DNA from: a virus
DNA: 37,830 nt
Strand: one strand, 5' to 3'
Virus record (IMG/VR): IMGVR_UViG_3300028027_003646
Span: 1-37,830 of that record
A program made the translations under genes and the position numbers. Shown in pieces: positions 11,917 to 28,468 of this stretch (its first letter is position 1; each line of letters begins with the position of its first letter). Below the pieces are notes generated by a model. That model had not been told where the DNA came from and did no database searches. It worked only from the letters and a program-made list of their open reading frames with translations.

Positions 11917-11924
11917 TGCATCAT

Positions 11925-12245: not shown

Positions 12246-12263
12246 GGTTTGTTTTTCCTAGGT

Positions 12264-12785: not shown

Positions 12786-13961
12786 TTAGCGGCCTACACT
12801 GGCGGCAAAATCCATTAAGTATTTGTCGGTAATGCGCTGGATAAAGGTGAGGTCTTCCAGCGGGGGTATCGGCGTGTAGTCGTAATCAATCGTCAACTTG
12901 CCCGCCTTCAGCGCTTCCTTCTCGTTGGCGTCACTATCTAGCCAGGCATTGAAGCCCATCAAATAACCGCCAGACACTAAGGCGCGGCCCTTGGCATTGA
13001 GGCCCGCCAAAATATCCTTAGCCAGACTCGGCGTCATCGGCTTATCAACCGCCCACATATGCGCCTCGGCCATCGTGTCGGCCAGCACTTGTGCGGTGCG
13101 GGTGTAGCTTTCAAACTTGAATAGTGGGTCGGCGCTAAGGCTGTGGCTTCCCCAAAAAATAAAGCCTTTGGCGCGTACCAGCGTGGTGACGTCGGCGGCG
13201 TTCAGTAAGCCTGCATCGGTATCTGGGTCTTGCAAGTCCCAGAACACGTCTTGGCTTAAGCCGGTGACGCCATTAATCACCACATTAGAAAGGGTTTTGT
13301 GCCAGCCGGTTTCTTTGTCGATTTTGGCGCGTAAGCCCATCGCGTAGGCCACGGCCAGATCTAGGCCTTGATCGCTTTTGCCGTCAAAGTTGGGATTGCT
13401 AAAGTCTGGCCAGATCAGCATCAGCTCGCGCTGGCCAAAGTTTTTGCGATACTCAAGGGCGGCTTCTAAGCTATTGCAGCCTCGGGCGCTGATATAGGCG
13501 AAGGCGCGTAGCTTCTGGCAGATGGTGGCCAGCTCGTTGGCCACCAGCAAAGTGTCGTAGCCTGGCACGCCTAAGATGCGCGGCTTAACGTGAACCGTGT
13601 TGTTCGCCGATAGCAACGCTTGCAAGCCGGTAAAGCGGCCCTGTTCATCGGTGCCGCCGATGATGTTTTTTTCGGTTTCTTTTTCGTCTGCGCCTTCTTC
13701 TACCCGCACCATCACAATCATCGGGCTGGTTTGTTTGGATATGGCGCGCAAGGTGCGTAGCAGCGTGCCTTTCGTGCCTGCTTTACCGATGGCTTTTTGT
13801 ACGTTGGTAATCAGCACGGCTTGATTGAGCGGGAAGAACTTTGCGTCTGCATCGGGTGCAGTGCAGACGGCACCAATAACAGCGGTGCTAATGGTTTGAA
13901 TGGTGCGCGTGCCCTCGTTGACTTCGAGAACGCGCACACCATGATGGAATGAATCGCCCAT
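12786..13961 (-). CDS. FI: Tail sheath protein gpFI
   Basis: This 391-aa protein (P2 gpFI 396 aa) forms the contractile sheath. The chosen ATG gives MGDSFHHGVRVLEVNEG, aligning with P2's start, and has GAGGA six bases upstream; an in-frame ATG at 13994 adds an unlikely 11 residues. Family marks include STAVIGAVCTAPDAD near the N-terminus and the C-terminal DYDYTPIPPLEDLTF. It is first in its operon, just downstream of a candidate Ogr box at 14030-14048. Confidence 0.95.
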   Translation of the reverse strand: MGDSFHHGVRVLEVNEGTRTIQTISTAVIGAVCTAPDADAKFFPLNQAVLITNVQKAIGKAGTKGTLLRTLRAISKQTSPMIVMVRVEEGADEKETEKNIIGGTDEQGRFTGLQALLSANNTVHVKPRILGVPGYDTLLVANELATICQKLRAFAYISARGCNSLEAALEYRKNFGQRELMLIWPDFSNPNFDGKSDQGLDLAVAYAMGLRAKIDKETGWHKTLSNVVINGVTGLSQDVFWDLQDPDTDAGLLNAADVTTLVRAKGFIFWGSHSLSADPLFKFESYTRTAQVLADTMAEAHMWAVDKPMTPSLAKDILAGLNAKGRALVSGGYLMGFNAWLDSDANEKEALKAGKLTIDYDYTPIPPLEDLTFIQRITDKYLMDFAASVGR

Positions 13962-14029
13962 GATTTCCTCGGTTTGAATTGACCGAGCCATCATGAGCGT
14001 TTACGGCTGGATTGGCTTTCACTGGGGAT

Positions 14030-14048
14030 TGTGAAGCCTTGAACGACA
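14030..14048. promoter_or_regulatory. Candidate Ogr box upstream of FI
   Basis: TGT, 13 bases, ACA, in the gap between G and FI. The centre at about 14039 lies 56 bases before a predicted start at about 13983 for a minus-strand -10-like CATGAT (13990-13995). Known P2 Ogr sites are dyads TGT-N12-ACA near -55; the spacer here is one base longer. Confidence 0.5.
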
Positions 14049-14052
14049 CTGC

Positions 14053-14610
14053 TTAGGCGGGCGTTTCGCTTAAAACTTGCGCCAATAAGTTTTCAAGCCG
14101 TGCGACTTTCTCATTTAAGGCGAGTAATTGATCGTCTGCGTTGGCCGCCGGTGCGTCTAAAACCAGCGGCAAGGGCTGAGCGCCCATGATCCATTTTTTA
14201 CCGTTCCATACCGTGCCTTCAAAGTATTCAAGGCGGGTGTAGTCCGCAGAGAGCGGGCCTAATTCGCTGAGGATAACCCGCGCCCCATCTGCGATACGGT
14301 AAACCACCGCCCCTCGGTGATCCTCAATCAGCGCCCAGCACTGATCGGCAGTATCCCGAATGACGGCCTTGTTTTTAGCGGGCCTGAGCTTAGGCGCATC
14401 CAGCACCGCCCCAGCAGGCAAGCCGCAATATTTTGAAACCCACATTTCAGCCTTGCCGATATATTCGAGTGTCTGGGGGTCATGGCAAAAGCAAGCCACG
14501 ATGCCGTCGTGGCTGGCAAAGCCGTCTTGATCGAAAGAAACCGGCTGCGCAGGAAGGGCTTCTGGCGGCTGTTCTGGGCTGTGGTCTGGTTTGATTGTGT
14601 TATTAAGCAT
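14053..14610 (-). CDS. G: Tail fibre assembly protein gpG
   Basis: This is a 185-aa protein encoded directly after the fibre gene (4-base gap), with the chaperone role known for P2 gpG. The N-terminal 40 residues are Pro-rich. The conserved part includes HDPQTLEYIGKAEMWVS, and a C-terminal helix (residues about 160-185) may be a coiled coil. The ATG at 14610 is preferred, with GGGG about 10 bases upstream; an ATG at 14646 overlaps the fibre gene and adds 12 residues. It ends the V-W-J-I-H-G operon. Confidence 0.85.
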   Translation of the reverse strand: MLNNTIKPDHSPEQPPEALPAQPVSFDQDGFASHDGIVACFCHDPQTLEYIGKAEMWVSKYCGLPAGAVLDAPKLRPAKNKAVIRDTADQCWALIEDHRGAVVYRIADGARVILSELGPLSADYTRLEYFEGTVWNGKKWIMGAQPLPLVLDAPAANADDQLLALNEKVARLENLLAQVLSETPA

Positions 14611-14614
14611 TGGA

Positions 14615-17600
14615 TTATCCCCACCGAACGATGTAATTGAAGGCAATATTGTCTGGGCGTGTTCGGCCCTGTGGGCCGCCTGTTGTCGCCCTCGCTCTCG
14701 CTATCACATAATTAACGCCTGGCTGCCCGCCGCCACCTGAGTAAGACAACCAGCCACCATCATCAAAGGGCACGGTGTGCTGGTGCTCGCCCACATTGGC
14801 GGCTTGATAGCTCAATACGGTTCGCCCTGGATCAATGCCGCGCCCTGCGTCCCAGCCTGAGATATACATGCCGCGTAGATCAGGCAATTTTGCGCCATAG
14901 AGGCTGGCTAAAATCGGCGCTTCGGCGGCGTTAATGCTTTGGCCCTGTAAAAAGATCCAGCCAGTGGGTGGGGTATTACTCGGCCAGGGTTGGGGAATCC
15001 CAACGGGAACGCCGAAAGAGCCATCGGCCATGCCTTCCGCGTATCGTGCGGCATCGACGCGCACGCCAAAGGTGTCTACACCATTAGATCCCATCAGAAC
15101 GGGATAGCCTGGCGACCAGCCTACACGCGCATTAATCTTGCCAATATCCTTCCCTAGCGGAGAGTGGCCGCTACTCGCATCAAAGATCACATGCCCGTTG
15201 CCATAATGTTGCCAGCGCAGCAGGCTAGATACGCCATCATAATCTCTGGCCTTATCCGCAATGCTGCCCGCTGGATCGCGTGATTTTAAGTGATAGGTAT
15301 GCAGTTGGCTGGTGAGCACTCGGCCATCACTGATCGACATGATTTTAGTGGGCAAGTCGCCGGAGCCATTGGTGGTGACGCCAAAATGTAATTCTCCCCA
15401 ATTGGCCGCCGTGCCCGCGCCTTCTGCCCAGATGGCAGCCACATTAGAGACGGCGGATACATCCCTGAATGAATCCCAAGTAATCGCCCCTAAAATCTGC
15501 TTGTTGGCGCTAGGGTACTTTTTTTCAAAAACAAGCTTTGAATAATCTTCTTTCGTTGTTGGCCGGTTTAACACCACATTTTTAGATAAAAAAGTCCCGT
15601 CACTTCGCATCTCCCAAGTGCCTAGCGGTGCATTTGCTTCACCCGTCATTTGAAAGACCATTGATGCGCCAGACAGCCAGCCGCTACGATAAGTGCCGAT
15701 TTTGCTGATAACAGAATAGCCCTGGCTGTATTGGGTGGTCATTGAAGCAAGCCATGCCGTTTTGTTGTCTAGTGCAGTCGGTTGATTGCCGTTGTGGAAA
15801 GCGCCTTGTGTCCAGTCGTTCTCGATTGCATTAGAAAGTTGCCCTTTTGCGTTAGCGTTTACGCACCCCTCAAGTGCCAGCCCTTTGCCCCCTAAGTCGG
15901 CAAAGGTTGGGTAACGATTAGCGGGCATGCCGCCCAGTTTTTGGGAATCAGTCGCTACACCGCTTTGCTCGTTGACGGCTTTAACCCATTGGCTCCATAC
16001 CGAGTTGTATCTGGTACGGGTGAATTGTTCCGATTTATCGTAAGTGGTGTATTTTTGATAGATTTGCGAGGTGCCATTGGCTTTGACTTCAAGCACACCT
16101 GATATACCAACGGGGTAATTTTTTCCCGCTGTTGCGTTTAAATTTGTACCTTGGAAGACATAGCCGTCTTCGATGTAATGATTTAGATCGGAATCCGATG
16201 AGATTGGGGGCAGCTCTTTGTAGTAAGGCAGCAGCTTTGTATTCACCCATTTTGATGACACTTTGACCGTGTCATTGGCTGTTGCAGCAGGGTCTGGCGC
16301 AGTAATGGGGACGGTGACGTCAAAGGAGGTGGCGGTTAATGTGGTAGCCCCTTTTTTGCCGTCGCGGTTGCGAGCATCGGCATATAAACGAGCATCGCCC
16401 TTTTTATCAATGCTGGCTACGGTGGTTGAAACGGTTCTTGCCGTGGCATCGGGTGTATCGACGGCGGTGTAGTTGACGTTTCCGACATCGAGCATGGCCC
16501 CATTTGCCAGCGTGTTGAGCGCGGCCAGTGTTGCGGCTCGATTGTTCATCGTAACGTAGGGCGCAAAGGGGGCTTGGTTTCGGTCGATCATCAGCCGATA
16601 GCCCGTCTTTAACTCAGCCGATGCTTCGATATTGGGTGCTTTCACTAAACCAATAAATTCAGGGTTAGCAATGGGGGCAAAGGTGGCGGCTAATTTGCCA
16701 CCCAATCGGGCCGCGTCATAGGCCGTTCCTCTTAAATCTGTCACTACTTTAGCCCACGCTCTCCAGCTACCCGCGTAACGTGTTCTAGTAAACACGGTGG
16801 AGTCTGTATAGAGGGTGTACCGTTGAATTGCGGTTGTTCCTGTTGCCGAAACCTCTAATTCACCAGCGATCGGAGCTGGGTAGTTTTTCCCCGCCTCTGC
16901 TGCCGTGTTAGATGGCTGAAGCCACCGCCCCTCTGATACATAATCATTGAGATCCGAGGTAGCGGGCATAGGCTGCATGCCTTTGCGGTAGGGCTTTAAT
17001 TTCTCATTCACCCATTGCGACGACACTTTAAATGAGTCATTGGCCGTTTGAGTTGGATCAGGCGCAGAGATGGGCACCGGAAAGGTGCAACTGCCCTTAC
17101 CTAACACGACCACGCCCGATGTGCCGTCGCGGTGATTGACCGACCACATGGAACGGGTCAGCCCGTCTTTATCCACGCGAAACTCTAAGGAGCCCACTTT
17201 GCGTAAAGCGCTCGTTTCAGTGTCAGCAGCATAGGCCAGATAGGCGGCGGCTTGTGCCGAGTTGCCATTGGGCAAAGCATCTGTAACCGCTTTTGTCAGG
17301 GCTTTATTGCTGAGGGTGACAGAGGGCGCATATTGGGCGTTGTTGCGCAGGGCAATAAAAGAATTTTCTGAAACGACGTCGGCTTTTGCGGTGATTTTAT
17401 TGACGACGGTATCGCCGGTAAACGTCTTATTGCCCGCAATGCTTTGATTGCCGGTTAAGGCGACCTTGTTGTCATCCGCGTATTTTTTTGCTTCATCGCG
17501 CCCACGGCTGCCTTCTTTGACGGCGGCGGCGGTGAGCTCTTTCTTTAAGTCGGCGTGGGTTTTATCGGTGATTTTTTTATTGTAATAATCTTTTGAATGC

Positions 17601-18091
17601 GGGTCGTCATCGGCAATATGTTTTTTCATGGTGTCTTCGACCAGCTCAATACTGGCAATGCCAATATCTTGGCTGACGCTAATCGTGACGGCGGCGGTGT
17701 TGCTAACCACAAACACCATTCTGAGCGTTTGCACCTTGCCCGATCCTTCGGCTAATTGCGGCTTGTAGCTGGCGGGGCAGTTGGCCACGGCCACTAAGCC
17801 GCCTTTGTCGTCATACAAGCCCATTTCTCGAATCCACCAGCCGCCGGTGGTTTCCTTGATGATGAGTTCGGCAATGATGGTGTTTTTACCCGCTTCGGAT
17901 TTCAGCGAGTTTAAAGCGCTGCGGTAGTTTTCTTTGATGAGCTTGGTTTGCTTGTCATTGGGGACGGTGTCTTTGCCCGCGCCATCACCCACGGCCATTT
18001 TTTCAATATGGATGGTCTTTTTTTGCGCGGTGGCTGCGGCTATTTGCGCCGCGCCGTATTGGGTGAGGATGGCAAAATATTTTTGGGTCAT
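14615..18091 (-). CDS. H: Tail fibre protein gpH with pyocin-knob repeats
   Basis: This 1158-aa host-recognition fibre has a P2-H-type baseplate-attachment domain at residues 1-145 (MTQKYFAILTQYGAAQIAAA, WWIREMGLYDD). Two related modules of about 200 aa follow (about 254-450 and 509-706), each ending in a pyocin-knob domain with AGKNYP and FTRTRY motifs at about 375-450 and 632-706. A long strand-rich shaft follows, then a collar-like C-terminal region from about residue 1020 (GIPQPWPSNTPPTGWIFLQG, with GEHQH near the end). The chaperone gpG is downstream. Modular duplication is typical of fibres under host-range selection. Confidence 0.9.
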   Translation of the reverse strand: MTQKYFAILTQYGAAQIAAATAQKKTIHIEKMAVGDGAGKDTVPNDKQTKLIKENYRSALNSLKSEAGKNTIIAELIIKETTGGWWIREMGLYDDKGGLVAVANCPASYKPQLAEGSGKVQTLRMVFVVSNTAAVTISVSQDIGIASIELVEDTMKKHIADDDPHSKDYYNKKITDKTHADLKKELTAAAVKEGSRGRDEAKKYADDNKVALTGNQSIAGNKTFTGDTVVNKITAKADVVSENSFIALRNNAQYAPSVTLSNKALTKAVTDALPNGNSAQAAAYLAYAADTETSALRKVGSLEFRVDKDGLTRSMWSVNHRDGTSGVVVLGKGSCTFPVPISAPDPTQTANDSFKVSSQWVNEKLKPYRKGMQPMPATSDLNDYVSEGRWLQPSNTAAEAGKNYPAPIAGELEVSATGTTAIQRYTLYTDSTVFTRTRYAGSWRAWAKVVTDLRGTAYDAARLGGKLAATFAPIANPEFIGLVKAPNIEASAELKTGYRLMIDRNQAPFAPYVTMNNRAATLAALNTLANGAMLDVGNVNYTAVDTPDATARTVSTTVASIDKKGDARLYADARNRDGKKGATTLTATSFDVTVPITAPDPAATANDTVKVSSKWVNTKLLPYYKELPPISSDSDLNHYIEDGYVFQGTNLNATAGKNYPVGISGVLEVKANGTSQIYQKYTTYDKSEQFTRTRYNSVWSQWVKAVNEQSGVATDSQKLGGMPANRYPTFADLGGKGLALEGCVNANAKGQLSNAIENDWTQGAFHNGNQPTALDNKTAWLASMTTQYSQGYSVISKIGTYRSGWLSGASMVFQMTGEANAPLGTWEMRSDGTFLSKNVVLNRPTTKEDYSKLVFEKKYPSANKQILGAITWDSFRDVSAVSNVAAIWAEGAGTAANWGELHFGVTTNGSGDLPTKIMSISDGRVLTSQLHTYHLKSRDPAGSIADKARDYDGVSSLLRWQHYGNGHVIFDASSGHSPLGKDIGKINARVGWSPGYPVLMGSNGVDTFGVRVDAARYAEGMADGSFGVPVGIPQPWPSNTPPTGWIFLQGQSINAAEAPILASLYGAKLPDLRGMYISGWDAGRGIDPGRTVLSYQAANVGEHQHTVPFDDGGWLSYSGGGGQPGVNYVIARARATTGGPQGRTRPDNIAFNYIVRWG

Positions 18092-18093
18092 GG

Positions 18094-18636
18094 TTATGCG
18101 GCTGCCTTCGGATAAATGTTGATGACTTCGCCTTGGTATTGGCCGACGCCGATATAGATCAAGCCGCGTGGCTCGACGCTGATATTCATTTCGATCAGGT
18201 GGCGCGAGAGCGGCTTGGCTTCGTCAATTAAATAGTTCAGCTCGATCTGGGTTTCTTCGGTCATCCCCTGGTCTATGGTTTTGACTTCCAGCTTGAAAGT
18301 GCCACGCGGGCCGAGGGGCTTTTCTTCCCACCATTCGGTGATTTCTAAGCGATAGCCCAGCGGCTCGACGATGCGTTTAAGTGCGCCAATGGTGCCCTTG
18401 TGTTGATGCACAAAAAACGATTGGCGGATGACTTCCCGCTGCACCGGCTCGCTCCAATTCTCGTCCCATCGATCCACTGAGAAAGCCCAGGCTAAATAGG
18501 GCAAAGCGGCTTTGGGGCAGGTGTCGGCATTCCAAAGCGCCGCCAGTAGAATCGGCAACTCTTGGCCTGATTGGCAGCTGCTCGCTATGGCGCGTTCTAG
18601 CTTGCTTGATCCGGTGGGCAGCAGTGATCTAGTCAT
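18094..18636 (-). CDS. I: Baseplate protein gpI
   Basis: This 180-aa protein (P2 gpI 176 aa) belongs to the Tail_P2_I family, linking the baseplate wedge to the fibres. The start at 18636 gives MTRSLLPTGSSKLERAIAS, matching the family, and overlaps the J stop by 8 bases; upstream in-frame ATGs lie inside J. The motif LPYLAWAFSVDRWDENW is characteristic, as is the conserved HQHKGTIGALKRI segment. Confidence 0.93.
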   Translation of the reverse strand: MTRSLLPTGSSKLERAIASSCQSGQELPILLAALWNADTCPKAALPYLAWAFSVDRWDENWSEPVQREVIRQSFFVHQHKGTIGALKRIVEPLGYRLEITEWWEEKPLGPRGTFKLEVKTIDQGMTEETQIELNYLIDEAKPLSRHLIEMNISVEPRGLIYIGVGQYQGEVINIYPKAAA

Positions 18637-19528
18637 CGATCCCGCCGACGGTGATCTTGGTTGCGGTGCAGTGCGCGGCCTGTGTTTCATCAAGTACCAC
18701 ATCGCTTGCTGGTGACACGAGTTCGACCCGCTGCACGCCTTCTACATGCAGCGCGGCAAAGATGGCCGATTGCCGAATATCCCGCCCCATGCGGCGCTGG
18801 GTGCTGATGTGCTTTTTAAGCTGGGCGTGGGCGGCTTCTAAAATCGGGCCTTTTTCTGGGCCTTGGTAAAGATACAAAGCGGCGGTGATGGCGTAATTAA
18901 CGATCTTGGCCGACTGCACGGTGAGCCGGTCGCCAACGGGCCTAACGTCTTCCCCCGATAGCACTAGCTTCACTTTGGCGAGCAAATCAGCGGGGGCCGT
19001 GCCGTCGCCATCATTCGCCAGTACGCTGACCACTACTTCGCAGGGCTGGGGACTGATGGCGCTGGCATCAGCCACACGAGCGTCCGCCGATAAAGCATGA
19101 AAGATATAAGCGGATCTTGGCCCCGCCACGCTTAAGCCTTCAAAAGCCCGCTGGCCGCGTGCGCGTAATGAATCATCGGATTCTAAAACCGCATCGGTAG
19201 GCGGTACCGCGTTTGGATCTGCGGGCGTAATCACAAAGCGCTGGACGTTAAAGTTAGCCACGAGATTGTCTAAATCTTCTCCCTGGCTAAACGCCAACAT
19301 GCAGGCCGCGCCGCGTTCGTTAATCTTTTGCCGCTGGATCAATTCGCGGTAAGCATTTTCTTGTAAGAGCTTGGTGAGTGGTTCAGATTCAAAGGCAAGC
19401 ACGGCGGCCGCATCGGGGTAGAGCGCAATCAGCGCCGCTTTACGCTCATTAAAGATCGTTTCAAAATCCAGCGCCTCGATCAGATTGGGCGGGGGCAGGC
19501 GTGAGAGGTCTACTTCTTGGCTTTTCAT
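18629..19528 (-). CDS. J: Baseplate assembly protein gpJ
   Basis: This 299-aa protein (P2 gpJ 302 aa) is a Baseplate_J family wedge component. Family features are the start with LPPPNLIEALDFETIF, the segment NERGAACMLAF, and SDDSLRARGQRAFEGLSVAGP in the centre. It lies three bases after W and overlaps I. Confidence 0.95.
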   Translation of the reverse strand: MKSQEVDLSRLPPPNLIEALDFETIFNERKAALIALYPDAAAVLAFESEPLTKLLQENAYRELIQRQKINERGAACMLAFSQGEDLDNLVANFNVQRFVITPADPNAVPPTDAVLESDDSLRARGQRAFEGLSVAGPRSAYIFHALSADARVADASAISPQPCEVVVSVLANDGDGTAPADLLAKVKLVLSGEDVRPVGDRLTVQSAKIVNYAITAALYLYQGPEKGPILEAAHAQLKKHISTQRRMGRDIRQSAIFAALHVEGVQRVELVSPASDVVLDETQAAHCTATKITVGGIDD

Positions 19529-19531
19529 GGC

Positions 19532-19882
19532 TTAGGCTCGCAGAGGAATAGAAAGCGCCACCGGCTGCTGGCCGCGTGGGCCATCGATGCGCTCGGCTTC
19601 TAAGGTGATATTGAGTGCGCCGTGTTGCTGGCCCAGCGCTAAAGTGACGCGCTGGGCGCGGATACGCGGTTCCCACTTTTTAAGCGCCGTGGCGGTTGCG
19701 GCCATTACCCTTAAGCGGGTGGCCCCGTTTAAAGGCTGATCGATCAGCGCGGGGATTTCAGAGCCATAGTCGCGGCGCATTAGGCGGCTACCTAGTGGCG
19801 TGGTCAGTACATCGGCCACCGATTGCTGGATATGCGCTAGCTCATCAATCGCATGGCCGCTGTGTTTGTTCAGGCCCGCCAT
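19532..19882 (-). CDS. W: Baseplate assembly protein gpW
   Basis: This 116-aa protein (P2 gpW 115 aa) has a GPW/gp25 fold and forms the inner baseplate ring. The motif VLTTPLGSRLMRRDYGSEIP is diagnostic. Its ATG shares one base with the V stop codon region, so the two are coupled. Confidence 0.95.
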   Translation of the reverse strand: MAGLNKHSGHAIDELAHIQQSVADVLTTPLGSRLMRRDYGSEIPALIDQPLNGATRLRVMAATATALKKWEPRIRAQRVTLALGQQHGALNITLEAERIDGPRGQQPVALSIPLRA

Positions 19883-20559
19883 TAGGTTGGCCCGCCGGTG
19901 CTGTCATTGCCTCGTTGCACGCGGTTGTGGGTGTGGCTATGTAAAACCACGCCATTACTGGTGATCGCGCCACCGCTTTGGGTGATTGGGCCGGTGATCG
20001 TGGTTGCGCCGCCACTTGTCCCCCCTGTGCCGCTCATGCCTGCGGCGTAGCTAAACGCGCCCAGCACATCGGCTTTACCTTTAAAGGTGCTGTCGCCTTT
20101 GACGCTCAGATTGCCGCCGACGGTGAGGTTGCCGGTGGTGGTGGTTTCAGGGCAATCGACGGTGACGTGATCTGAGGCTTGAATCAGCGCGGTTTTGATG
20201 CCGGTGGCGCTAAGTGCGCCGCTTGCATGGTTGTAGCTGACGAGCGCCCCATCGGGAAAAGCAATGCAAGTGACGTTGGGGTCATTACTTGGCGGCGGGA
20301 AGGCGTCTGAAAATAGCCCAGGTAAAAGCACACCCGCGCCCACTTCGCCCGATTGGCTAAATAGAATGCCTTGCTCGCCGATGCTGGGCGGATTCCATAC
20401 GCGGACATTGCCCGCTCGAGGGGCGGGCCATTGCAGCCAGTCGGTCAGCAGCTCGCCACTTTGCACACGGCAGAGTGCGTTGTCGTGATCCACTTCTGCC
20501 ACGGTGCCGATGCGGATCAGGCTTTCTAAAATTCGGGAATGTTCGGCTGTTTGATTCAT
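19882..20559 (-). CDS. V: Baseplate spike protein gpV
   Basis: This 225-aa protein (P2 gpV 211 aa) is the membrane-piercing tail spike. After a helical start, an OB-fold segment carries CRVQSGELLTDWLQWPAPRAG (very P2-like), followed by a repeat-rich beta-helical spike and a C-terminal tip with LHSHTHNRVQRG, whose His residues resemble the iron-binding HxH of P2 gpV. The ATG at 20559 matches P2's start; a GTG at 20598 would lie inside an inverted repeat and is less likely. It heads the V-W-J-I-H-G operon. Confidence 0.92.
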   Translation of the reverse strand: MNQTAEHSRILESLIRIGTVAEVDHDNALCRVQSGELLTDWLQWPAPRAGNVRVWNPPSIGEQGILFSQSGEVGAGVLLPGLFSDAFPPPSNDPNVTCIAFPDGALVSYNHASGALSATGIKTALIQASDHVTVDCPETTTTGNLTVGGNLSVKGDSTFKGKADVLGAFSYAAGMSGTGGTSGGATTITGPITQSGGAITSNGVVLHSHTHNRVQRGNDSTGGPT

Positions 20560-20574
20560 TACGCCATAGTGCCG

Positions 20575-20603
20575 CGCCGGTGCGCGATGTTCACGCACCG
20601 GCG
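20575..20603. repeat. Perfect inverted repeat between S and V
   Basis: CGCCGGTGCG (20575-20584) and CGCACCGGCG (20594-20603) form a 10-bp GC-rich stem with a 9-base loop. It separates the lysis/completion operon from V. There is no U-tract on either strand, so it may slow or protect transcripts rather than terminate them. Confidence 0.6.
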
Positions 20604-20605
20604 GG

Positions 20606-20624
20606 TGTGAGACGGGGTTTTACA
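20606..20624. promoter_or_regulatory. Candidate Ogr box upstream of V
   Basis: TGT, 13 bases, ACA, directly beside the S stop codon. It has the same 19-bp form as the boxes near FI and O. If the usual -55 spacing held, transcription would start almost at the V ATG, so either the start is closer to the box or this copy is accidental. Confidence 0.35.
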
Positions 20625-21077
20625 TTAGCTGCTGATTTGGTTCAGGATTAAATCCGCGATGAGCTCATCATCGCTTTGGCTAAATCCCAGTAATACGCGG
20701 GCGGCGTATTTGTGTTTGATGCCGCGTTTGGCATTGACGGTATCCACCAAACCAAACTGGTGAACGCGGGCTAGGCGGTTGGCGCTGGGGCTAAAATGCA
20801 CGGCGGCCCCGTCGCTATTGCTTTGGGTTTTAAGATGGCGGGCGGTGCGCAGCTTGGTAAACATCTTGCGCTTGATGCGTCCGCCTTTTTTACGCATCTG
20901 CGGCAAGCGCGGTGCGTAGGGTGTGCCGTCGGGGTTTTGATTGGCGGCGATGTGGGCTTGCTGGCGTTTGCGTAGTTCGGTCGCCAGCTTTTTATTCATG
21001 CCGCGTAATGCTTTGGCGTCCAGATTACCAAGCAAGCCAGAAGCCCAGCCTTCCAGCGCTTTAAAATTGTTGCTCAT
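20625..21077 (-). CDS. S: Tail completion protein gpS
   Basis: This 150-aa protein (P2 gpS also 150 aa) is needed to finish the head-proximal tail end. The ATG at 21077 overlaps the R stop as ATGA and gives MSNNFKALEGWASGLLGNLD. Typical features are the Lys/Arg-rich RKRQQAHIAANQNPDGTPYA and KKGGRIKRKMFTKLR segments. Confidence 0.92.
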   Translation of the reverse strand: MSNNFKALEGWASGLLGNLDAKALRGMNKKLATELRKRQQAHIAANQNPDGTPYAPRLPQMRKKGGRIKRKMFTKLRTARHLKTQSNSDGAAVHFSPSANRLARVHQFGLVDTVNAKRGIKHKYAARVLLGFSQSDDELIADLILNQISS

Positions 21078-21535
21078 GGTGTTGGCCACGGCTGATCGCG
21101 CAGGAATAAAGCCCAATCTTGGCCCGCGTATTCATCCAGCGGCGGCTCGCCGTAATGGGTAATGACGGGTTTCCCGTCTACCTCGCGCACCACTACGCGT
21201 TCGGTCAAATTGATCTTGATTGAAAGATCAATCGTGTCGTGGTTCAAGATATCCGCTTCAAAGCTAATGCCATCTTGGCGCTTATCGGCATGACTAAAAA
21301 GCTCGGGCTGATTGCTGCTTACCCAAGCCAGCACTGGCACCATGATGGTGTCGGGGTGGTCGGCGTAGTCTTGAATAATAAGATTGAGCGTGTATTGATA
21401 TTCAAAAGAAAGCGATTTGCCCGCTGTGGCAATGAGCTTACCTTCATCAATAAAGATGGCCAGCTTATCGGGATTGTGGGCAAGGTGGCGCACCGTTTTA
21501 GCCAGGTATTCGCGCAGGCTGGCGGGCTTAATCAT
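21074..21535 (-). CDS. R: Tail completion protein gpR
   Basis: This 153-aa protein (P2 gpR 155 aa) begins MIKPASLREYLAKTVRHLAHNP and ends in DWALFLRDQPWPTP. It works with gpS at the tail end. It overlaps the LysC reading frame by 8 bases upstream and S downstream, completing the lysis and tail-completion cluster. Confidence 0.92.
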   Translation of the reverse strand: MIKPASLREYLAKTVRHLAHNPDKLAIFIDEGKLIATAGKSLSFEYQYTLNLIIQDYADHPDTIMVPVLAWVSSNQPELFSHADKRQDGISFEADILNHDTIDLSIKINLTERVVVREVDGKPVITHYGEPPLDEYAGQDWALFLRDQPWPTP

Positions 21536-21791
21536 GTTTCATTTTCGCTTGGCAGCTTTGGATCATATCGACCTGCGCCGCGCAGCTATGCCACGCGGCT
21601 TCCAGATCATCAATCGCTTGATTCAGCTCGCCGTTGGTTTGGGCTTGGTTCGCTGGCAGGCGGCAGGCTGTTACGGTGGGACAGCCAATCTCTATAAGCT
21701 GCACCGCTGGCGATTTCGGGACGCTGACGCAAGCGGATAACATCAGCAGGCAGGCGAGCATCAGCCCAATCCCTGACTTCTTTGCTTTCAT
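21528..21791 (-). CDS. lysC: Outer-membrane spanin LysC (Rz1-like)
   Basis: From the ATG at 21791 this is an 87-aa lipoprotein. A Lys-rich start, a hydrophobic helix and the lipobox LSAC put the lipidated Cys at residue 21; a Pro-containing mature part follows. It lies largely inside the LysB gene in another frame, the classic Rz/Rz1 nested arrangement. With LysB it should fuse inner and outer membranes in the last step of lysis. Confidence 0.85.
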   Translation of the reverse strand: MKAKKSGIGLMLACLLMLSACVSVPKSPAVQLIEIGCPTVTACRLPANQAQTNGELNQAIDDLEAAWHSCAAQVDMIQSCQAKMKHD

Positions 21792-22068
21792 TTTTAAGTT
21801 GCTCCATAGCGCGTTTGTTTTTAAGTAGCGCGGTGTTGACGCTTTCAATGCTGCTGCGTAAATCGGCTTGGGCGCTGTCGTTGTCGCTGCTGACTTTGTA
21901 AAGCTGTTCAAGCAAGGCCGCTTGCTGGGCCTTGTCTTGCTCGCTAGCGGTCAGCTCAATTTGCAGCAGCTCGGCTTTGTGTTTCTGGCCCTGGTGCAAA
22001 TTGATGGCAATCAGTAGCGCAGCCAGAAAGCACAAAGCAACAAGAACGAGAGTGGTGAGTCGGCTCAT
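21610..22068 (-). CDS. lysB: Inner-membrane spanin LysB (Rz-like)
   Basis: This 152-aa protein has an N-terminal membrane anchor (about residues 4-24, LVALCFLAALLIAI) followed by a long Gln/Glu/Lys-rich coiled coil. A C-terminal section with VRDWADARLPADVIRLRQRP is the hallmark of P2 LysB. The start overlaps the endolysin stop as ATGA. It is the partner of the nested LysC lipoprotein. Confidence 0.9.
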   Translation of the reverse strand: MSRLTTLVLVALCFLAALLIAINLHQGQKHKAELLQIELTASEQDKAQQAALLEQLYKVSSDNDSAQADLRSSIESVNTALLKNKRAMEQLKNESKEVRDWADARLPADVIRLRQRPEIASGAAYRDWLSHRNSLPPASEPSPNQRRAESSD

Positions 22069-22529
22069 TTGATCCCCACGTAATAGGTTTTATCCCCGGC
22101 AAACTTGGTCAGCACTTGTTGCCGGTTGGCCCCTTTACGAAAGCCAATATGCACCCATGCGCTTGGCAGGGTGGGGGACTCTAAAATCAATTGATCGAAC
22201 TCGATATTTGAGGCAACTAAAGCCCTGGCCACACTTCTTGCCGTGCCAAATTGGGGGCAGCGAATATCTACGGCGCGGGCGGTGGCGTGATCGCTGCTGG
22301 CGCTGCCACCTACTGCCTTATTTAATGTGGGGGTACGCCAGCCGCTAGTAATAATGAGGGGATTGTTTCCGAGTATTGCTCGAATTTTTTCGAGCTGCTG
22401 GCAGGTGTGCACGGCGTTTTCGAGCAGGTTTACGGGCAGGCTGTTGTCGATGTTGTACTGCGCTGCGGTTTGGCTGGCGGTGAATTCGCGCAGGCTGAAG
22501 TGTGGGGATAGCTGGGGTGAGGTGTTCAA
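22065..22529 (-). CDS. Endolysin, M15-type zinc peptidase
   Basis: This 154-aa enzyme, predicted to cut peptidoglycan stem peptides, occupies the position of P2 gene K but is a peptidase rather than a glycosidase. The fold is peptidase M15 (family M15_3-like). The zinc site is H81 and D88 in SSDHATARAVDI plus H127 in WVHIGF, and SGWRTPTLN precedes it. No signal peptide is seen, so it needs a holin to reach the periplasm. Its 5' part is overlapped for 185 bases by the reading frame of the upstream holin-like gene. Confidence 0.9.
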   Translation of the reverse strand: MNTSPQLSPHFSLREFTASQTAAQYNIDNSLPVNLLENAVHTCQQLEKIRAILGNNPLIITSGWRTPTLNKAVGGSASSDHATARAVDIRCPQFGTARSVARALVASNIEFDQLILESPTLPSAWVHIGFRKGANRQQVLTKFAGDKTYYVGIK

Positions 22530-22830
22530 TGTGAGGCTCCTTGTTTAATAATTTCTGAATAGGCCATACCAAAGCGGCCCATAAATCGCTGACGTTGCCG
22601 CGCTTAAAGCAGAAATAAACACCGCTAAACAGCAGTAAAAAGCTGTGTGTGGGGCTGGCGGCTGTGATGCCCATCAGTAGGCGAATGGCAGTCAGGCCGT
22701 AATAAACGGTTAAGCCATAAGCAAAAATACAAATGCCTAAGCTATGGGCTTTGTTGTTTCGATTGAATAGGGCAATGCTGAGCGCGGCAAAGAGGCAGGC
22801 CAGCACGCTGATGAGTAAATAGAGGTTCAT
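22345..22830 (-). CDS. Holin-like membrane protein with Arg-rich tail
   Basis: From the ATG at 22830 this is 161 aa. Residues 1-85 contain three hydrophobic segments (LLISVLACLFAALSIALF; an ICIFAYGLTVYYGL region; a HSFLLLFSGVYFCF region) and resemble phage 3TM holins. Such holins usually end near residue 90, but here the frame continues for about 70 very Arg/Pro-rich residues, 185 bases of which overlap the endolysin start. The start overlaps the upstream membrane protein as ATGA. Role: timed hole formation for endolysin release. The tail may be fortuitous read-on or a real cytoplasmic domain. Confidence 0.75.
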   Translation of the reverse strand: MNLYLLISVLACLFAALSIALFNRNNKAHSLGICIFAYGLTVYYGLTAIRLLMGITAASPTHSFLLLFSGVYFCFKRGNVSDLWAALVWPIQKLLNKEPHIEHLTPAIPTLQPARIHRQPNRSAVQHRQQPARKPARKRRAHLPAARKNSSNTRKQSPHYY

Positions 22831-23195
22831 TTCTTGCCCCCGATATTGAGTAAATCCTCGGGGTGTTCGGCTCGCACAATCAGCCATTGCAAAAGCTTCA
22901 TGCTGATGGCCCCAGCGATTAATGCGCCGATGCCTTCGCTAACCACAATTGAAGCAGGCAGGGGAATGGCGATTAGATCCGCCACCAGTTTGGCGGCAAC
23001 ACAACCGGCCACAAACGCGGTTAAAAAGAAAACAACCTTTTGTAAAACGCTGAGCTTTTGCGCGGTCATGATAAACACCACGGCCCCCGCAAAACTGCCC
23101 ATCAGTACGTCGGCGTGTATCCCTGAAAATAGCCCCGCAATGGTGAGTAAAAACACGGTAAAAGAGGCGGCGGTGCCGGTGAGCGGTTCGGTCAT
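22827..23195 (-). CDS. Putative holin or antiholin, multi-pass membrane protein
   Basis: This 122-aa protein has about four hydrophobic helices (near 12-28, 30-45, 53-80 and 86-106) and a short charged tail (RAEHPEDLLNIGGKK). This matches the putative-holin genes found between X and the endolysin in betaproteobacterial P2-like phages. Two adjacent holin-like genes suggest a holin and antiholin pair, but which is which cannot be told from sequence. Confidence 0.8.
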   Translation of the reverse strand: MTEPLTGTAASFTVFLLTIAGLFSGIHADVLMGSFAGAVVFIMTAQKLSVLQKVVFFLTAFVAGCVAAKLVADLIAIPLPASIVVSEGIGALIAGAISMKLLQWLIVRAEHPEDLLNIGGKK

Positions 23196-23199
23196 GGTC

Positions 23200-23406
23200 T
23201 TAGTCCCAAAGTTGAATAATGGTTTTTTTAGATTCGGGCGGGCTGACGTTCGGCAGTTCGATCACGGTACCTATTGGAATCATCGGCCCCAGATCGGCCA
23301 GCCGGTGATTGGCGGCGAGTACTGCTTCGGTAATGCCGGCGGTTTTGCCGTAAACCCGAAAGCAGATCTCGTCCAGCGTGTCGCCCTGGCTTGCAACGAC
23401 TTGCAT
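23200..23406 (-). CDS. X: Tail protein gpX (LysM-like)
   Basis: This 68-aa protein (P2 gpX 67 aa) starts MQVVASQGDTLDEICFRVYG, a LysM-like fold of the Phage_tail_X family, and contains NHRLADLGPMIPIGTVIELP. The ATG at 23406 overlaps the L stop by one base (TGATG). It is a baseplate or tail-tip component. Confidence 0.93.
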   Translation of the reverse strand: MQVVASQGDTLDEICFRVYGKTAGITEAVLAANHRLADLGPMIPIGTVIELPNVSPPESKKTIIQLWD

Positions 23407-23873
23407 CAGATCAGCTCGACACTGGCGCGGTTTGATCCGAGTAAGTCCCGAATAGCCCAACGTGCGTCGCGGCGTAGGTCTTCGATGGGGTCAAGCAATT
23501 GATCCGCCTTATTGTGGCCGTCGCCGGTGCTATCAAAATCACGGTAACGCTCGGTCAAGTTGGCCTTGGCTAAGCAGTACACGGCGCGGATGTAATGGCC
23601 GACCAACACGCTCTGGCAATCCAGTGTTTCGCTTTCAACCTCGGCCAAGTTCTGGATGCCATCGGCCAGATGCTTGGCTTTAAATTTGCGTAGGTCTTGA
23701 TTGGCGCTGGCCATCGCCGCAATCAGCGCCATTCTTAGCCTGGGCTCGGTGACAGTGCCGTCGATGCGTAAAGCGCAGCGCGCGTCGGCCATATCGATAT
23801 CGGGCCAGAAACCGCTGTTTTTAATCAGCGGTTCTAAGCTTTTGCCGCTTTTTTGTGCTGCAATAAATCCCAT
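23406..23873 (-). CDS. L: Head completion protein gpL
   Basis: This 155-aa protein (P2 gpL 169 aa) is the head completion/stabilisation protein. Family sections seen are FWPDIDMADARCALRIDGTV and the C-terminal RRDARWAIRDLLGSNRASVELI. AAGGA precedes the ATG by 6 bases. An 87-bp gap with a GC-rich hairpin separates it from M. Confidence 0.92.
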   Translation of the reverse strand: MGFIAAQKSGKSLEPLIKNSGFWPDIDMADARCALRIDGTVTEPRLRMALIAAMASANQDLRKFKAKHLADGIQNLAEVESETLDCQSVLVGHYIRAVYCLAKANLTERYRDFDSTGDGHNKADQLLDPIEDLRRDARWAIRDLLGSNRASVELI

Positions 23874-23960
23874 GATCTGTCCTTAAGAGGTGGAGGGGGA
23901 TTTGAAAGAACCTTAAAAGGCTTCGCCTCCCCCTGCCTCTCGCTGCGGGGTTCGCCCTGT

Positions 23961-24626
23961 TTAGCTCGCTATTTCTGCGGCTGTGTTCTTGATCTCGCGC
24001 TGGAGTTTTTCTAGATCCTTAATCACGCCGCACTTGGGGTGCAGCGCTAAGGCTTGCCGGAAATAATCGGCAGCAGCGGGTTTGTTGTGCTCGGATAAGC
24101 CGTAAGCGATGGCCTTAAATAACTTGGCTTTTACTTGGTCGGGCATATCTTCGGCTTGGGTGATTTCAGCGATGGCTTGCAGGCCCTCTACATCAATGGC
24201 TTCCTCCAATACCCGCCCATTGATGGCGGTGTCGGCCATTTCCTCGACAACTAAACATGCCAAGCTGCGCTGGTACTGATCCGGCGGCGCTAATCGATGT
24301 TGGATCGCATAGCGCACAATCGGCAGCGCTGCGGTGAAGTTGCCGGTGTCGATCATCCACACCATCACCGTCATCAGCACGTCATCCTGCGCACCGCCTT
24401 GGGCGGATAAAGCGCCGCTGATCCAAGGCGCGTAATCGGGCAGCATTTCGCGCTTAGCGTCGATCTTGCGGCTGAGGGATTGGATCTGCTTAAGCCGTCG
24501 CTTGTCGCCCGCCAGCTTATGCAACATCAGCGCGTAGCCGCTGGCATTCACATGGGCACCCAAACCGCTTTCTTTCGAGAGCTGAGCCGCCGTCATGCGC
24601 AACAAGTGGGCTTTTGCGGGACTCAC
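23961..24626 (-). CDS. M: Terminase small subunit gpM
   Basis: This 221-aa protein (P2 gpM 247 aa) carries the endonuclease function of P2 terminase that cuts cos, acting with gpP. The N-terminus MSPAKAHLLRM and the segment DKRRLKQIQSLSRKIDAKR, then YAPWISGAL, are family-typical. It overlaps N by four bases. Confidence 0.92.
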   Translation of the reverse strand: MSPAKAHLLRMTAAQLSKESGLGAHVNASGYALMLHKLAGDKRRLKQIQSLSRKIDAKREMLPDYAPWISGALSAQGGAQDDVLMTVMVWMIDTGNFTAALPIVRYAIQHRLAPPDQYQRSLACLVVEEMADTAINGRVLEEAIDVEGLQAIAEITQAEDMPDQVKAKLFKAIAYGLSEHNKPAAADYFRQALALHPKCGVIKDLEKLQREIKNTAAEIAS

Positions 24627-25714
24627 TTTCCTGCCTCTGCGGGTTTTTCTTCTGTGCGCTCTTCGGGCAGCAGCTCGATGTTTTCAATCAAGCAGCCCGC
24701 TTCATACGCTTCAATCACATAAGCGTCGTTTGAGCTTGTGTAATCGGCAATCTGGTCATAGTCCGGCTCTTCACGCACATGACGGCGGCGGCCTCCCTCT
24801 TGCCAGTACAGCGATAAATTAGCCAGTGGCAGAATCAGCATTTTGTCTTTCGGGAAGAAAGGCACCGTGACGGCAGTTTTGCCACCAATGCGCTTTTGGC
24901 TAATCAGCATATCCAGCGCCATTTCTTCGGTGGGCGCGTGCTCGCTATTGATCTTGGGGAAGTATTTATCTGCCAGTAATTCGCTGGAGACGATCACCAC
25001 TAAATTAGGGTTTTCGCGGTACTCGGGATGAATCAGGGTATTCACCGCATCAAACACCAGCGCGTCGATGCTGTTGTAGTCGCCTTTTTCGGTGTTCCAG
25101 GTGACGTTGTCTTTGCCCTTGATCTCGGTTTTACCCACAATGATTTTGCCGGAGCCTGGCTTACTTTCTGTCATCACGTTAACAGGGGCATTTTCGCGGT
25201 ACTGCTGAAGCCAGCCTTTGTTCACGTCTTGCAGCAGCGGGAATTTCTCGCGGTCGGTGTCTTCGGCCACCGATACACCATTAAAGCCGATCATGATTCG
25301 ATCAAGCGCTTGCTGCTTGACGATCACGTCGCGGATTTTGGTTTGGAAGTCTGGGAACTTGGCCCACATATCCAGCTTTGCGTAGCCAATGCCGGTGTCA
25401 AAGTTGGTTTGTACACAGCGATAGCGGCCAGAACTTAATCCCGTTACGTCACGCGGCTTACGCGGGTTCTTTTTAGTATTGGTACGGCCCGCAATCGTAC
25501 TGGTCACGCCTAGGCCCAGCTTTTCGCCTTCCATCTCGGTGACAGAGGGCATATTGATCTTACCGAGGAAGGCGCTCGATAGTTGCACACGGCTTTCTAG
25601 CTTTTGCTGGATGGATGGATCAACCGTAAATGTTTTATTTGCGGCGGGAACCTTATTTAATTGAGCAACTTTTTTTTCAAAAGCGTTATAGACAATTCGC
25701 GTTTCATTGCGCAT
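24623..25714 (-). CDS. N: Major capsid protein gpN
   Basis: This 363-aa HK97-fold capsid protein (P2 gpN 357 aa) begins MRNETRIVYNAFEKKVAQLN. Family features include YRCVQTNFDTGIGYAKLDMWA and the C-terminal LPLANLSLYWQEGGRRRH. P2 capsid protein is trimmed near residue 31 by gpO; the corresponding N-terminal arm is present. AAGGA lies 6 bases before the ATG. Confidence 0.96.
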   Translation of the reverse strand: MRNETRIVYNAFEKKVAQLNKVPAANKTFTVDPSIQQKLESRVQLSSAFLGKINMPSVTEMEGEKLGLGVTSTIAGRTNTKKNPRKPRDVTGLSSGRYRCVQTNFDTGIGYAKLDMWAKFPDFQTKIRDVIVKQQALDRIMIGFNGVSVAEDTDREKFPLLQDVNKGWLQQYRENAPVNVMTESKPGSGKIIVGKTEIKGKDNVTWNTEKGDYNSIDALVFDAVNTLIHPEYRENPNLVVIVSSELLADKYFPKINSEHAPTEEMALDMLISQKRIGGKTAVTVPFFPKDKMLILPLANLSLYWQEGGRRRHVREEPDYDQIADYTSSNDAYVIEAYEAGCLIENIELLPEERTEEKPAEAGK

Positions 25715-25771
25715 GGTGTTTCCTTAATCGGGTATTGAATTGTTTTGATTGAATTTCGGCATGTTGCCTAA

Positions 25772-26560
25772 TTAGCAGTCTGTTTCAAAAGACACTGTGC
25801 CGCCGGTGGCTTTGTCGCGTTGGCCTGCAAAATGCGCCGGTTCGTTTTCAACTTTTGATTTGAATTCGCGCAATTCGGCTATTTCGTTTTTCAATTCATC
25901 GATACGGCTTGTCATGGTGCGAAAGCCATCATTGTTTTCTGCGGTTTGCTCGGCAATGGCTTCCAGTGCTTGCTGGATATCCGCAAATTGCAGGTTTTCT
26001 TTTTCTGCTTTTTTAGAAAAAATCTTCTTTACAGATTCCAGCATCGACACGGCGTGCGTTCCTTCTTCTTCGAGTGCAAACTCGATGGCATTGGTGAATA
26101 AACAGTTTTTGTTTGTTTTGCGGGCCATCAGCGGGCTGGCACCACCGACTGAGGCTGAGAATTTCAGCATTGATGTACCCAAGCTAGCGGGGTTGTCGGT
26201 GACAGCTAAGCCGGTTAAGTAGGCTTCCCCCGTGTCTGCAAAGTCAGGGTCACACTCGATGGAGGTGTAAACCTTTTGGCGGTTCTGATTCATCGCCACC
26301 AGTTCGGGCGTGGGGTCAATGGTGGCAAACAAGGCCATCTTGCCGTCGATCTCTTTGGCTTCCAGTGCCACTACATCACCGTAAGATTTAAAGGCGCTGT
26401 CTGGATAAATGCCTCGAATGTGTTCCATATTCACCCGCGCCCCGTAGGTCGCTGGGTTGTAATTCTTTGCCATCTGGCTAAGCCAGGCGCGGGTAATGGT
26501 GCGGCCATCGGTGGTTGCGCCTTCGGTCGCTACCCGAAACGATTTAAATTTTTTGTCCAT
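25772..26560 (-). CDS. O: Capsid scaffold and protease gpO
   Basis: This 262-aa protein (P2 gpO 284 aa) acts as internal scaffold and self-cleaving serine protease. The N-terminal protease part shows D18, H47 (in NMEHIRG) and S100 (in VYTSIE), matching the D-H-S triad reported for P2 gpO. The C-terminal half (about 165-245) is a coiled coil that nucleates capsid assembly. AAGGG precedes the ATG. It is first of the O-N-M-L-X-lysis-R-S operon, below a candidate Ogr box. Confidence 0.95.
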   Translation of the reverse strand: MDKKFKSFRVATEGATTDGRTITRAWLSQMAKNYNPATYGARVNMEHIRGIYPDSAFKSYGDVVALEAKEIDGKMALFATIDPTPELVAMNQNRQKVYTSIECDPDFADTGEAYLTGLAVTDNPASLGTSMLKFSASVGGASPLMARKTNKNCLFTNAIEFALEEEGTHAVSMLESVKKIFSKKAEKENLQFADIQQALEAIAEQTAENNDGFRTMTSRIDELKNEIAELREFKSKVENEPAHFAGQRDKATGGTVSFETDC

Positions 26561-26647
26561 AGACCCTTCTGCGGTTTTATTGAATAGCGGGGTTAATTCC
26601 TGAAGGCACCCACTATCAACACAAATTAAACCCCCATCAATTGACGC

Positions 26648-26674
26648 CTTTTGTGGATTCCCATTTCACAAAAG
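26648..26674. promoter_or_regulatory. Candidate Ogr box between divergent O and P
   Basis: A perfect inverted repeat, CTTTTGTG and CACAAAAG, has an 11-base spacer and contains TGT-N13-ACA (26652-26670). The centre near 26661 is 56 bases from the start predicted by a minus-strand -10-like GATAGT (26612-26617) for gene O. Being symmetric, it could serve P on the plus strand as well. Confidence 0.6.
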
Positions 26675-26716
26675 CCAACAAAATACTTCTGCTTTTGATT
26701 GCCTTAGCCTTTGGCT

Positions 26717-28468
26717 ATGGAAAATATAAACATCAAAGATCCGCGTATTGAGGCTCGCCGCCTGTATTGGGCAGGCTGGCGTGTTTCGCGTATTGCAGAA
26801 TCATTAGGCGAAAAACCCGCCACGGTGCATAGCTGGAAACGGCGCGATGAATGGGACAAAAAGAAGCTGATTGAGCGCGTCGAAGAGTCGCTGGAATCGC
26901 GCTATATCTTTCTTTTGAATAAGGACAAAAAAGAGGGTATCGACTTTAAAGAAATTGATTTGCTTTCACGGCAAATGGAACGCATCGCAAGGATTAATAA
27001 ATACACCGGCGGCGGCAATGAAGCCGACCTAAACCCCAATATTGCCAGCCGCAACAAGGCAGAGCGCAAGAAGGCCACCAAGAACGATTTTAATGATGAG
27101 CACGTCGATCTCATCAAAGACGCCTTTATGGATTCTTTGTTTGCCTATCAGCATGGCTGGTTTGAGGCAGGCAAGAAACACAGCTTCCGCAATGTTTTAA
27201 AGTCTCGCCAAATTGGCGCAACCTGGTACTTCGCCCGCGAGGCGCTGTTCGATGCGATGACCACGGGCCGCAATCAAATCTTTTTAAGCGCCAGCAAGGC
27301 GCAGGCGCATGTATTCAAGCAATACATCATCGCCTTTGCCAAAGACGCCGCCGATTTAGAGCTAAAAGGCGATCCTATCGTCTTACCCAACGGCGCAACG
27401 CTGCACTTCCTCGGCACCAATGCCCGCACCGCGCAGAGCTACACCGGCAATCTATACGTGGATGAGTATTTCTGGATTCCACGCTTTCAGGAACTCCAAA
27501 AAGTCGCCTCGGGTATGGCCCTGCATTCGCACTGGCGGCAAACCTACTTTTCGACGCCTTCCAGCCTAAACCACGATGCCTATCCGTTCTGGTCGGGTGA
27601 TGCCTTCAATAAAGGCCGTGCCAAAGCTGATCGTATTCAGCTTGATGTCAAACCGGCCAGCCTGGCAAAAGGCAGCCTCTGTGCTGACGATCAGTGGCGG
27701 CAAGTCGTGACCATTGAAGACGCGATTGAAGGCGGTTGTAATCTGTTTGATCTGGACAAGATCAAAAAACGATATAACCCCAACGATTATCAAAACTTGC
27801 TGATGTGTGAGTTTATCGATGATAGCGCCAGCATCTTTCCCTTATCTGAATTGCAAAAGTGCATGGTTGATAGCTGGGAGAAGTGGGAGGACTTCAAAGC
27901 CATTGCCCCGCGCCCCTTTGGCTACTGGCCTGTATGGATTGGCTACGACCCTGCTTTATCCGGCGATAGCGCGGGCTTGATCGTATTGGCCCCGCCGTTG
28001 GTGCCTGGCGGTAAATTCCGCGTGTTGGAGAAACGCCAATGGAAAGGCATGGATTTTGCCGCGCAGGCGCAAGGGATTAAGGATATCTGCAGCCAATACA
28101 ACGTGGCGTATATCGGCATTGATACCACCGGCATTGGGCAGGGCGTTTATCAACTGGTTAAACAGTTCTACCCAGCGGCTAAGGCCATCAATTACAGCGT
28201 AGATATGAAAGCGCGCTTAGTCATGAAGGCGCAAGACGTGATCCGCAATGGCCGCTTGGAGTTTGACGCGGGCTGGACGGATCTTGCCGCCGCCTTTATG
28301 GCCATTCAAAAAACCATGACCGCCAGCGGGCGGCATGTGACTTACTCGGCTAGCCGCTCCGAAGAACTCAGCCACGCCGACTTAGCCTGGGCATGTATGC
28401 ACGCCTTACTCAATGAGCCGTTAGAAGGCTCTAATTCGACTAATTCCGGCTTTATGGAAATTTGCTAA
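26717..28468 (+). CDS. P: Terminase large subunit gpP
   Basis: This 583-aa packaging motor (P2 gpP 590 aa) has an N-terminal HTH DNA-binding segment at about 10-45 (WRVSRIAESLGEKPATVHSW). The ATPase part has the variant Walker A SRQIGATW at 163-170 and Walker B YVDEYFW near 247-253. The C-terminal nuclease-like part has acidic residues in GYDPALSGDSAG and GIDTTG. The ATG at 26717 is chosen; a TTG at 26711 would add two residues. P and Q are the only rightward late genes, as in P2. Confidence 0.95.
   Translation: MENINIKDPRIEARRLYWAGWRVSRIAESLGEKPATVHSWKRRDEWDKKKLIERVEESLESRYIFLLNKDKKEGIDFKEIDLLSRQMERIARINKYTGGGNEADLNPNIASRNKAERKKATKNDFNDEHVDLIKDAFMDSLFAYQHGWFEAGKKHSFRNVLKSRQIGATWYFAREALFDAMTTGRNQIFLSASKAQAHVFKQYIIAFAKDAADLELKGDPIVLPNGATLHFLGTNARTAQSYTGNLYVDEYFWIPRFQELQKVASGMALHSHWRQTYFSTPSSLNHDAYPFWSGDAFNKGRAKADRIQLDVKPASLAKGSLCADDQWRQVVTIEDAIEGGCNLFDLDKIKKRYNPNDYQNLLMCEFIDDSASIFPLSELQKCMVDSWEKWEDFKAIAPRPFGYWPVWIGYDPALSGDSAGLIVLAPPLVPGGKFRVLEKRQWKGMDFAAQAQGIKDICSQYNVAYIGIDTTGIGQGVYQLVKQFYPAAKAINYSVDMKARLVMKAQDVIRNGRLEFDAGWTDLAAAFMAIQKTMTASGRHVTYSASRSEELSHADLAWACMHALLNEPLEGSNSTNSGFMEIC

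Follow-up and report, generated by a model that had tools for sequence, protein, structure and literature searches.

Putative Ogr-type activator boxes at the late operons of a P2-like phage, and the promoter geometry they have in common with relatives

The late operons of phage P2 provide the best point of comparison for the boxes described here. P2 has four late promoters (PO, PP, PV and PF) with one activator site common to O and P, and its activator, Ogr, contacts the host RNA polymerase. The P2 record (NC_001895) annotates both activator sites and transcript starts: taking box centres from our own reading of those sites, the distance from centre to mapped start is 55.5 bp for O and for P, 57 bp for V and 56.5 bp for F. 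The P2 sites align as TGT-N12-CCA (O/P and F) and TGT-N11-ACA (V), while the consensus is quoted as TGT-N12-ACA in the excerpted text of a paper on Stenotrophomonas phage Smp131, where an Ogr-like protein and putative late promoters resembling that consensus, described as TGT-N12-ACA-like, are also reported (PMC3931495). For the Ralstonia phages phiRSA1 and phiRSY1 the excerpted description gives a longer motif, TGTTGT-X13-ACAACA, at four late promoters, centred 50–90 bases before start codons, together with an ogr homolog that adjoins early genes and encodes a protein with a conserved zinc motif (PMC5694545). In Mannheimia phage PHL101 (NC_008201) 19-bp sites labelled 'possible activator protein' are annotated at the O/P, V and FI promoters. 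Here we analyse boxes of this kind in a stretch of viral DNA of 37,830 nucleotides (IMG/VR record IMGVR_UViG_3300028027_003646, positions 1 to 37,830; hereafter the window).

Three 19-bp boxes of the form TGT-N13-ACA, proposed in an earlier note on this DNA, lie at the starts of the O/P, V and F operons, the arrangement of P2-type late promoters. The FI box (14030–14048, minus strand; TGTCGTTCAAGGCTTCACA as read on that strand) falls just past the stop of the tail-fibre-assembly gene, the V box (20606–20624, minus strand; TGTAAAACCCCGTCTCACA) immediately past the stop of S, and the third (26652–26670), between O and P, is common to two divergent promoters. Each of the four promoters has a −10 hexamer and a predicted start: CATGAT for FI (13990–13995, minus; start 13983), CACTAT for V (20566–20571, minus; start 20559), GATAGT for O (26612–26617, minus; start 26605) and TAGCCT for P (26705–26710, plus; start 26717). 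The distance from box centre to predicted start is 56 bp, as had been claimed for FI and O and as extends to V and P; in P2-type promoters the dyad is expected about 55 bp upstream of the start. Within 13900–26800 no predicted sigma-70-like promoter coincides with a box, although no search was aimed at −35 hexamers. Because the mapped P2 starts stand at a similar distance from their box centres (55.5–57 bp), the likeliest reading of the boxes is as sites of an Ogr-type activator: by analogy with P2 we put the probability at about 0.85 that they bind a late activator of this type, most likely an 83-amino-acid zinc protein encoded in the early region (4313–4564, minus strand; matching phrog_603 and, below its cut-off, PF04606). 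The fit to Ogr action suggested earlier is strongly supported by nine distinct relatives of the Iodobacter group, by a rigid box-to-hexamer distance of 44 bp and by the P2 starts.

The relatives provide the first two of these. Iodobacter prophages (L007–L009) are the nearest with a named host (V identity 82–84%), and in the Iodobacter group the half-sites are kept while the spacer changes. The O/P box is kept in 9/9 distinct relatives and the V box in all eight that hold V; the FI box, with changes in the spacer, is found in 8/8 relatives that hold the region (L025–L029, L007–L009). For a wider comparison, regions upstream of V, P, O and F were taken from relatives' loci plus P2 and the window (102, 62, 63 and 56 starts, respectively) and reduced to a non-redundant set (<80% identity) of 47, 22, 26 and 30, in which phylogenetic dependence remains. 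Most relatives were found by V similarity and the set leans to V-bearing phages; gene starts come from tblastn matches to the proteins of the window and of P2 and may be misplaced. Exact boxes (spacers of 11–14) occur in the 130 bp upstream of 38/47 V, 21/22 P, 24/26 O and 22/30 F genes, compared to 3.8, 1.2, 1.6 and 2.3 expected from shuffles. Among non-redundant promoters with an exact box at 54–112 bp, the first base of a −10-like hexamer (nAnnnT) stands 44 bp from the centre of the box in 24/24 cases for O, 20/21 for P, 32/37 for V and 13/17 for F: at every other offset from +20 to +65 the count within each gene class is six or fewer. P2 V and F fit this rule, and the P2 O and P hexamers (AAACTG and AGCCTT) are one base off nAnnnT at +44.

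The spacer itself was described in the earlier note as one base longer than the published P2 form. Measured against the quoted TGT-N12-ACA this is so, but a spacer of 13 bases, counted from the inner TGT to the inner ACA, was already in print for phiRSA1/phiRSY1; it is not peculiar to this phage and is common outside enterics. Relatives span N11–N14, and 12 bases is thus no defining spacer length for the wider P2-type group. Box spacing is uniform within the genome in 45 of the 46 loci with at least two sites, a count that is not de-duplicated and covers only sites with nAnnnT at +44. On a tree of 31 Ogr proteins, whose inner support is weak, spacer length needs four changes (least possible three; shuffled mean 12.9): N11–12 and N14 form groups, N13 is spread more widely, and a single N13 row falls within the N14 group. 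The tree omits L146 (Mana; no match in the motif search), L131 (on a contig that differs from that of L009) and L127, L128, L135, L136, L137 and L147 (which are second matches, belong to other prophages or lack a labelled box). The suggestion that the longer spacer reflects a divergent Ogr survives to the extent that spacing clusters on this tree. The divergence that marks the protein of the window, a second zinc knuckle two residues short, was considered as the cause of the 13-base spacer and is ruled out: N13 boxes occur with C-X2-C proteins (the Iodobacter group, L121 and L122), with C-X4-C proteins (L109, L110, L117, L120, L130, L145 and L148) and with a C-X5-C protein (L112). Spacing appears to travel with the clade of the activator, be it Ogr itself or simply the phage lineage.

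The same geometry predicts how each transcript begins. For V and for P alike, the predicted start is the A of the ATG (V, the baseplate spike gene, 19882–20559, minus strand, mechanical open reading frame 19882–20598; P, the terminase large subunit gene, 26717–28468, plus strand, mechanical frame 26711–28468). Provided that the start lies 56 bp from the box centre, as it does in P2, V and P of this phage are probably leaderless. The O gene (capsid scaffold/protease, PF05929; 25772–26560, minus strand) has a predicted leader of 45 nt with a Shine-Dalgarno (SD)-like AGAAGGG, and FI (tail sheath) one of 22 nt with an SD-like GAGG. The first listed FI ATG (13994) sits within the −10 hexamer; the likely FI start is therefore 13961, a choice that rests on the promoter geometry, the GAGG and a protein sequence resembling the start of P2 FI, giving a gene at 12786–13961 (minus strand; mechanical frame 12786–13994). 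Both leader classes fit the 50–90-base range given in the phiRSA1/phiRSY1 excerpts (PMC5694545).

Relatives divide in the same way. Among model-matched promoters (from the non-redundant totals above) an in-frame ATG or GTG coincides with the predicted start or follows it by one base in 24/32 V and 19/20 P genes, but in 0/24 O and 0/17 F genes. The V exceptions comprise seven with a leader of 23–28 nt and one with 3 nt; the P exception (L032) has 22 nt. Pairing with the anti-SD sequence is clearly stronger than in shuffles for O (−5.5 vs −2.2 kcal/mol) and for F (−4.8 vs −1.3), slightly stronger for V (−2.7 vs −1.8) and about the same for P (−3.3 vs −3.2). With the four genes pooled, the SD contrast between near and far boxes is marked (n = 41 vs 58, P = 4e-8); taken singly, V (−2.04 vs −2.76) and P (−3.12 vs −3.13) show no such marked contrast, and some of the 'far' P and V starts are misassigned codons. 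Six named phages (KS14, Mana, Dobby, PHL101, 186 and ENT90) were fetched afterwards as a partial check: the distance from predicted start to start codon is 0 for KS14 V and for Mana V and P, and 1 for Dobby V. A leaderless V is already known in P2, where the recorded V start site is the start of the V coding sequence, and the introduction of one paper lists P2 as one of few sources of leaderless genes, with a citation of Christie and Calendar 1985 (PMC4633059; introduction in excerpt). The predicted leaderless P is new here: P2 P has a 23-nt leader, and no leaderless P of a P2-like phage was found in print, a weak negative given that most subscription papers fall outside the literature searched.

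Several observations weigh against Ogr-type boxes with this geometry, and most of them bear on a particular alternative. That the boxes are chance palindromes which happen to fall in short intergenic gaps would be in keeping with the bare count: TGT-N13-ACA has six matches in the window vs 5.84 expected, 52 of 100 shuffles give at least six, and three of the six matches lie away from the boxes (at 12250, 18683 and 31951). The pattern count was accordingly rejected as evidence. The box plus nAnnnT at 44 bp from its centre is above chance in the window, with five matches vs 0.76 expected and none of 100 shuffles reaching five; this full pattern was picked after the geometry had been seen in relatives plus the window. 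Four of the five are the FI, V, O and P promoters (one box serving O and P). The fifth (31911–31969, minus strand, with TATCAT as −10) lies inside a cargo gene for a Lamassu-like SMC protein (LmuB-like), and is probably chance, 0.76 being expected. Nor is the model universal: 15/47 V and 13/30 F regions miss the exact form, many of them from enteric phages with degenerate boxes, and no exact box was found in 186 (0/4), in ENT90 (0/3) or at F of KS14. Nevertheless, the boxes are held to be real because of geometry and conservation: chance predicts neither half-sites kept with a changing spacer in nine distinct relatives nor the 44-bp hexamer in four promoter classes, and we regard it as a very improbable explanation. 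An alternative that we also judge improbable, though less so, is that the boxes are real late-activator sites read by another phage regulator or a host factor. The 83-amino-acid protein falls below the PF04606 cut-off (E 3.4e-5, 19.9 bits vs 26.3), and its zinc motif, C-X2-C-X22-C-X2-C, departs from the C-X2-C-X22-C-X4-C of Ogr/Delta; because of this difference we term it Ogr-like rather than a strict member. P2 Ogr has C-X4-C as its second knuckle, and P2 ogr adjoins D. Boxes also occur without a PF04606 match in PHL101 (L140), a complete record, and in record G001 (of L029). PF04606 matches were found in 22/41 records tested (many of the rest being fragments), in 6/6 host genomes and in 5/6 named phages, PHL101 being the miss. 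Four viral records of the Iodobacter group score 22–26.1 bits (L124 passes only with neighbours in frame), and the three Iodobacter genomes give 22 (two of them) and 29.6 (the third, on another contig). Against another reader stand the match of the 83-amino-acid protein to phrog_603 (E 9.3e-8), the family that P2 Ogr matches at 1.3e-28, and the clustering of spacing on the Ogr tree; moreover, a zinc-motif scan of short open reading frames in the window gave no second clear Ogr candidate, and PF04606 was matched there once.

A further alternative accepts the promoters and disputes the leaderless starts: V and P would be translated from an upstream codon (GTG at 20598 for V, TTG at 26711 for P) or from read-through transcripts. 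Such in-frame codons do exist, and in KS14, PHL101 and Dobby the depositors annotated a P start upstream of the predicted transcript start. In addition, PHL101 V has 27 nt between predicted start and ATG, and V promoters with long leaders do not show a clear return of the SD (the −2.76 vs −2.04 kcal/mol above, as means). However, the upstream codons of the window fall between box and predicted start, and hence off that transcript; in all three of the annotated phages an in-frame ATG stands one base after the predicted start; and the frequency of start codons at 0 or +1 among relatives, together with P2 V, recorded as starting at its ATG, favors the downstream codons. We consider the upstream-start reading unlikely, but less so than either of the two preceding.

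If the boxes are Ogr-type sites, the Ogr-like protein would be produced from the early region, bind the dyad about 56 bp upstream of the start and recruit host RNA polymerase, both binding and polymerase contact being modelled on P2. The target promoters would lack a clear −35 and have only a weak −10 hexamer, set 44 bp from the centre of the box, and the single O/P box would fire in both directions. V and P transcripts would begin at, or one base before, the ATG and be translated without a leader; O and FI transcripts would carry leaders with ribosome-binding sites.

Two of the promoters also contain hairpins. Between the V box and the V −10 a strong hairpin (20575–20603, minus strand) is predicted, with a minimum free energy of −32.9 kcal/mol for the stretch 20556–20628 and a z-score of −3.77 for that stretch (−6.8 in a separate computation across relatives' promoters). 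Because it has no T run, it is not a standard intrinsic terminator. A second hairpin, at about 14015–14040 (minus strand) by the FI box, likewise has no clear T run. Each lies downstream of its box or overlaps it, and transcription of the preceding operon may stop there, within the promoter of the next (at V, this would be the O operon transcript). In the non-redundant set, hairpins between box and −10 with z below −2 occur at 12/47 V, 10/30 F, 2/22 P and 1/26 O promoters, and in some groups only (for V mainly Iodobacter, Rahnella and Yersinia); that they serve generally as terminators of the preceding operon is a guess.

The window as a whole is that of a P2-like phage: Pfam finds A, D, U, E, FII, FI, tail fibre, I, J, W, V, S, R, LysC, holins, L, M, N, O, P and portal (Q). 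Rfam and tRNA scans across it found nothing. The E gene (11771–12245, minus strand) holds GGTTTTTTA, with an open −1 frame past it, which would fit an E/E' frameshift like that of P2. A gene (29672–30310, minus strand) for a staphylococcal-nuclease-like protein with an Excalibur domain lies between Q and the defence genes. The defence genes (30748–33690, minus strand) form a cargo operon resembling Lamassu, with an LmuB-like SMC ATPase (E 4.3e-35), an LmuC-like protein (4.5e-6) and a weak LmuA-like match (6e-4); the two smaller proteins are, according to Pfam, the ABC-3C components MC5 and CTD9. At the end of the window (37285–37830, minus strand) there is a PAAR-like match (NF033420, E 9.5e-8) whose 32.1 bits are far under the cut-off of 124.

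The geometry provides a usable promoter model for non-enteric P2-like phages – box, 34 bp, nAnnnT, a 6-bp gap, start – and makes usable a pattern that is degenerate and, taken alone, at chance level. The model would correct gene starts: in three public records P is annotated as starting ahead of its own predicted transcript. If it is true, much of the P2-like family translates two essential late operons from leaderless transcripts. The products of V (spike) and P (terminase) are needed in low copy, while O (scaffold, before capsid) and FI (sheath, before tube) head genes for high-copy products. It is conceivable, as a tentative idea, that in most non-enteric P2-like phages the geometry of the Ogr promoter sets leader length, so that the low-copy operons headed by V and P are leaderless and the high-copy operons headed by O and FI carry leaders with ribosome-binding sites. 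Were this so, leader length would serve across the family as a means of regulating virion stoichiometry, or of using leaderless-competent ribosomes for translation late in infection.

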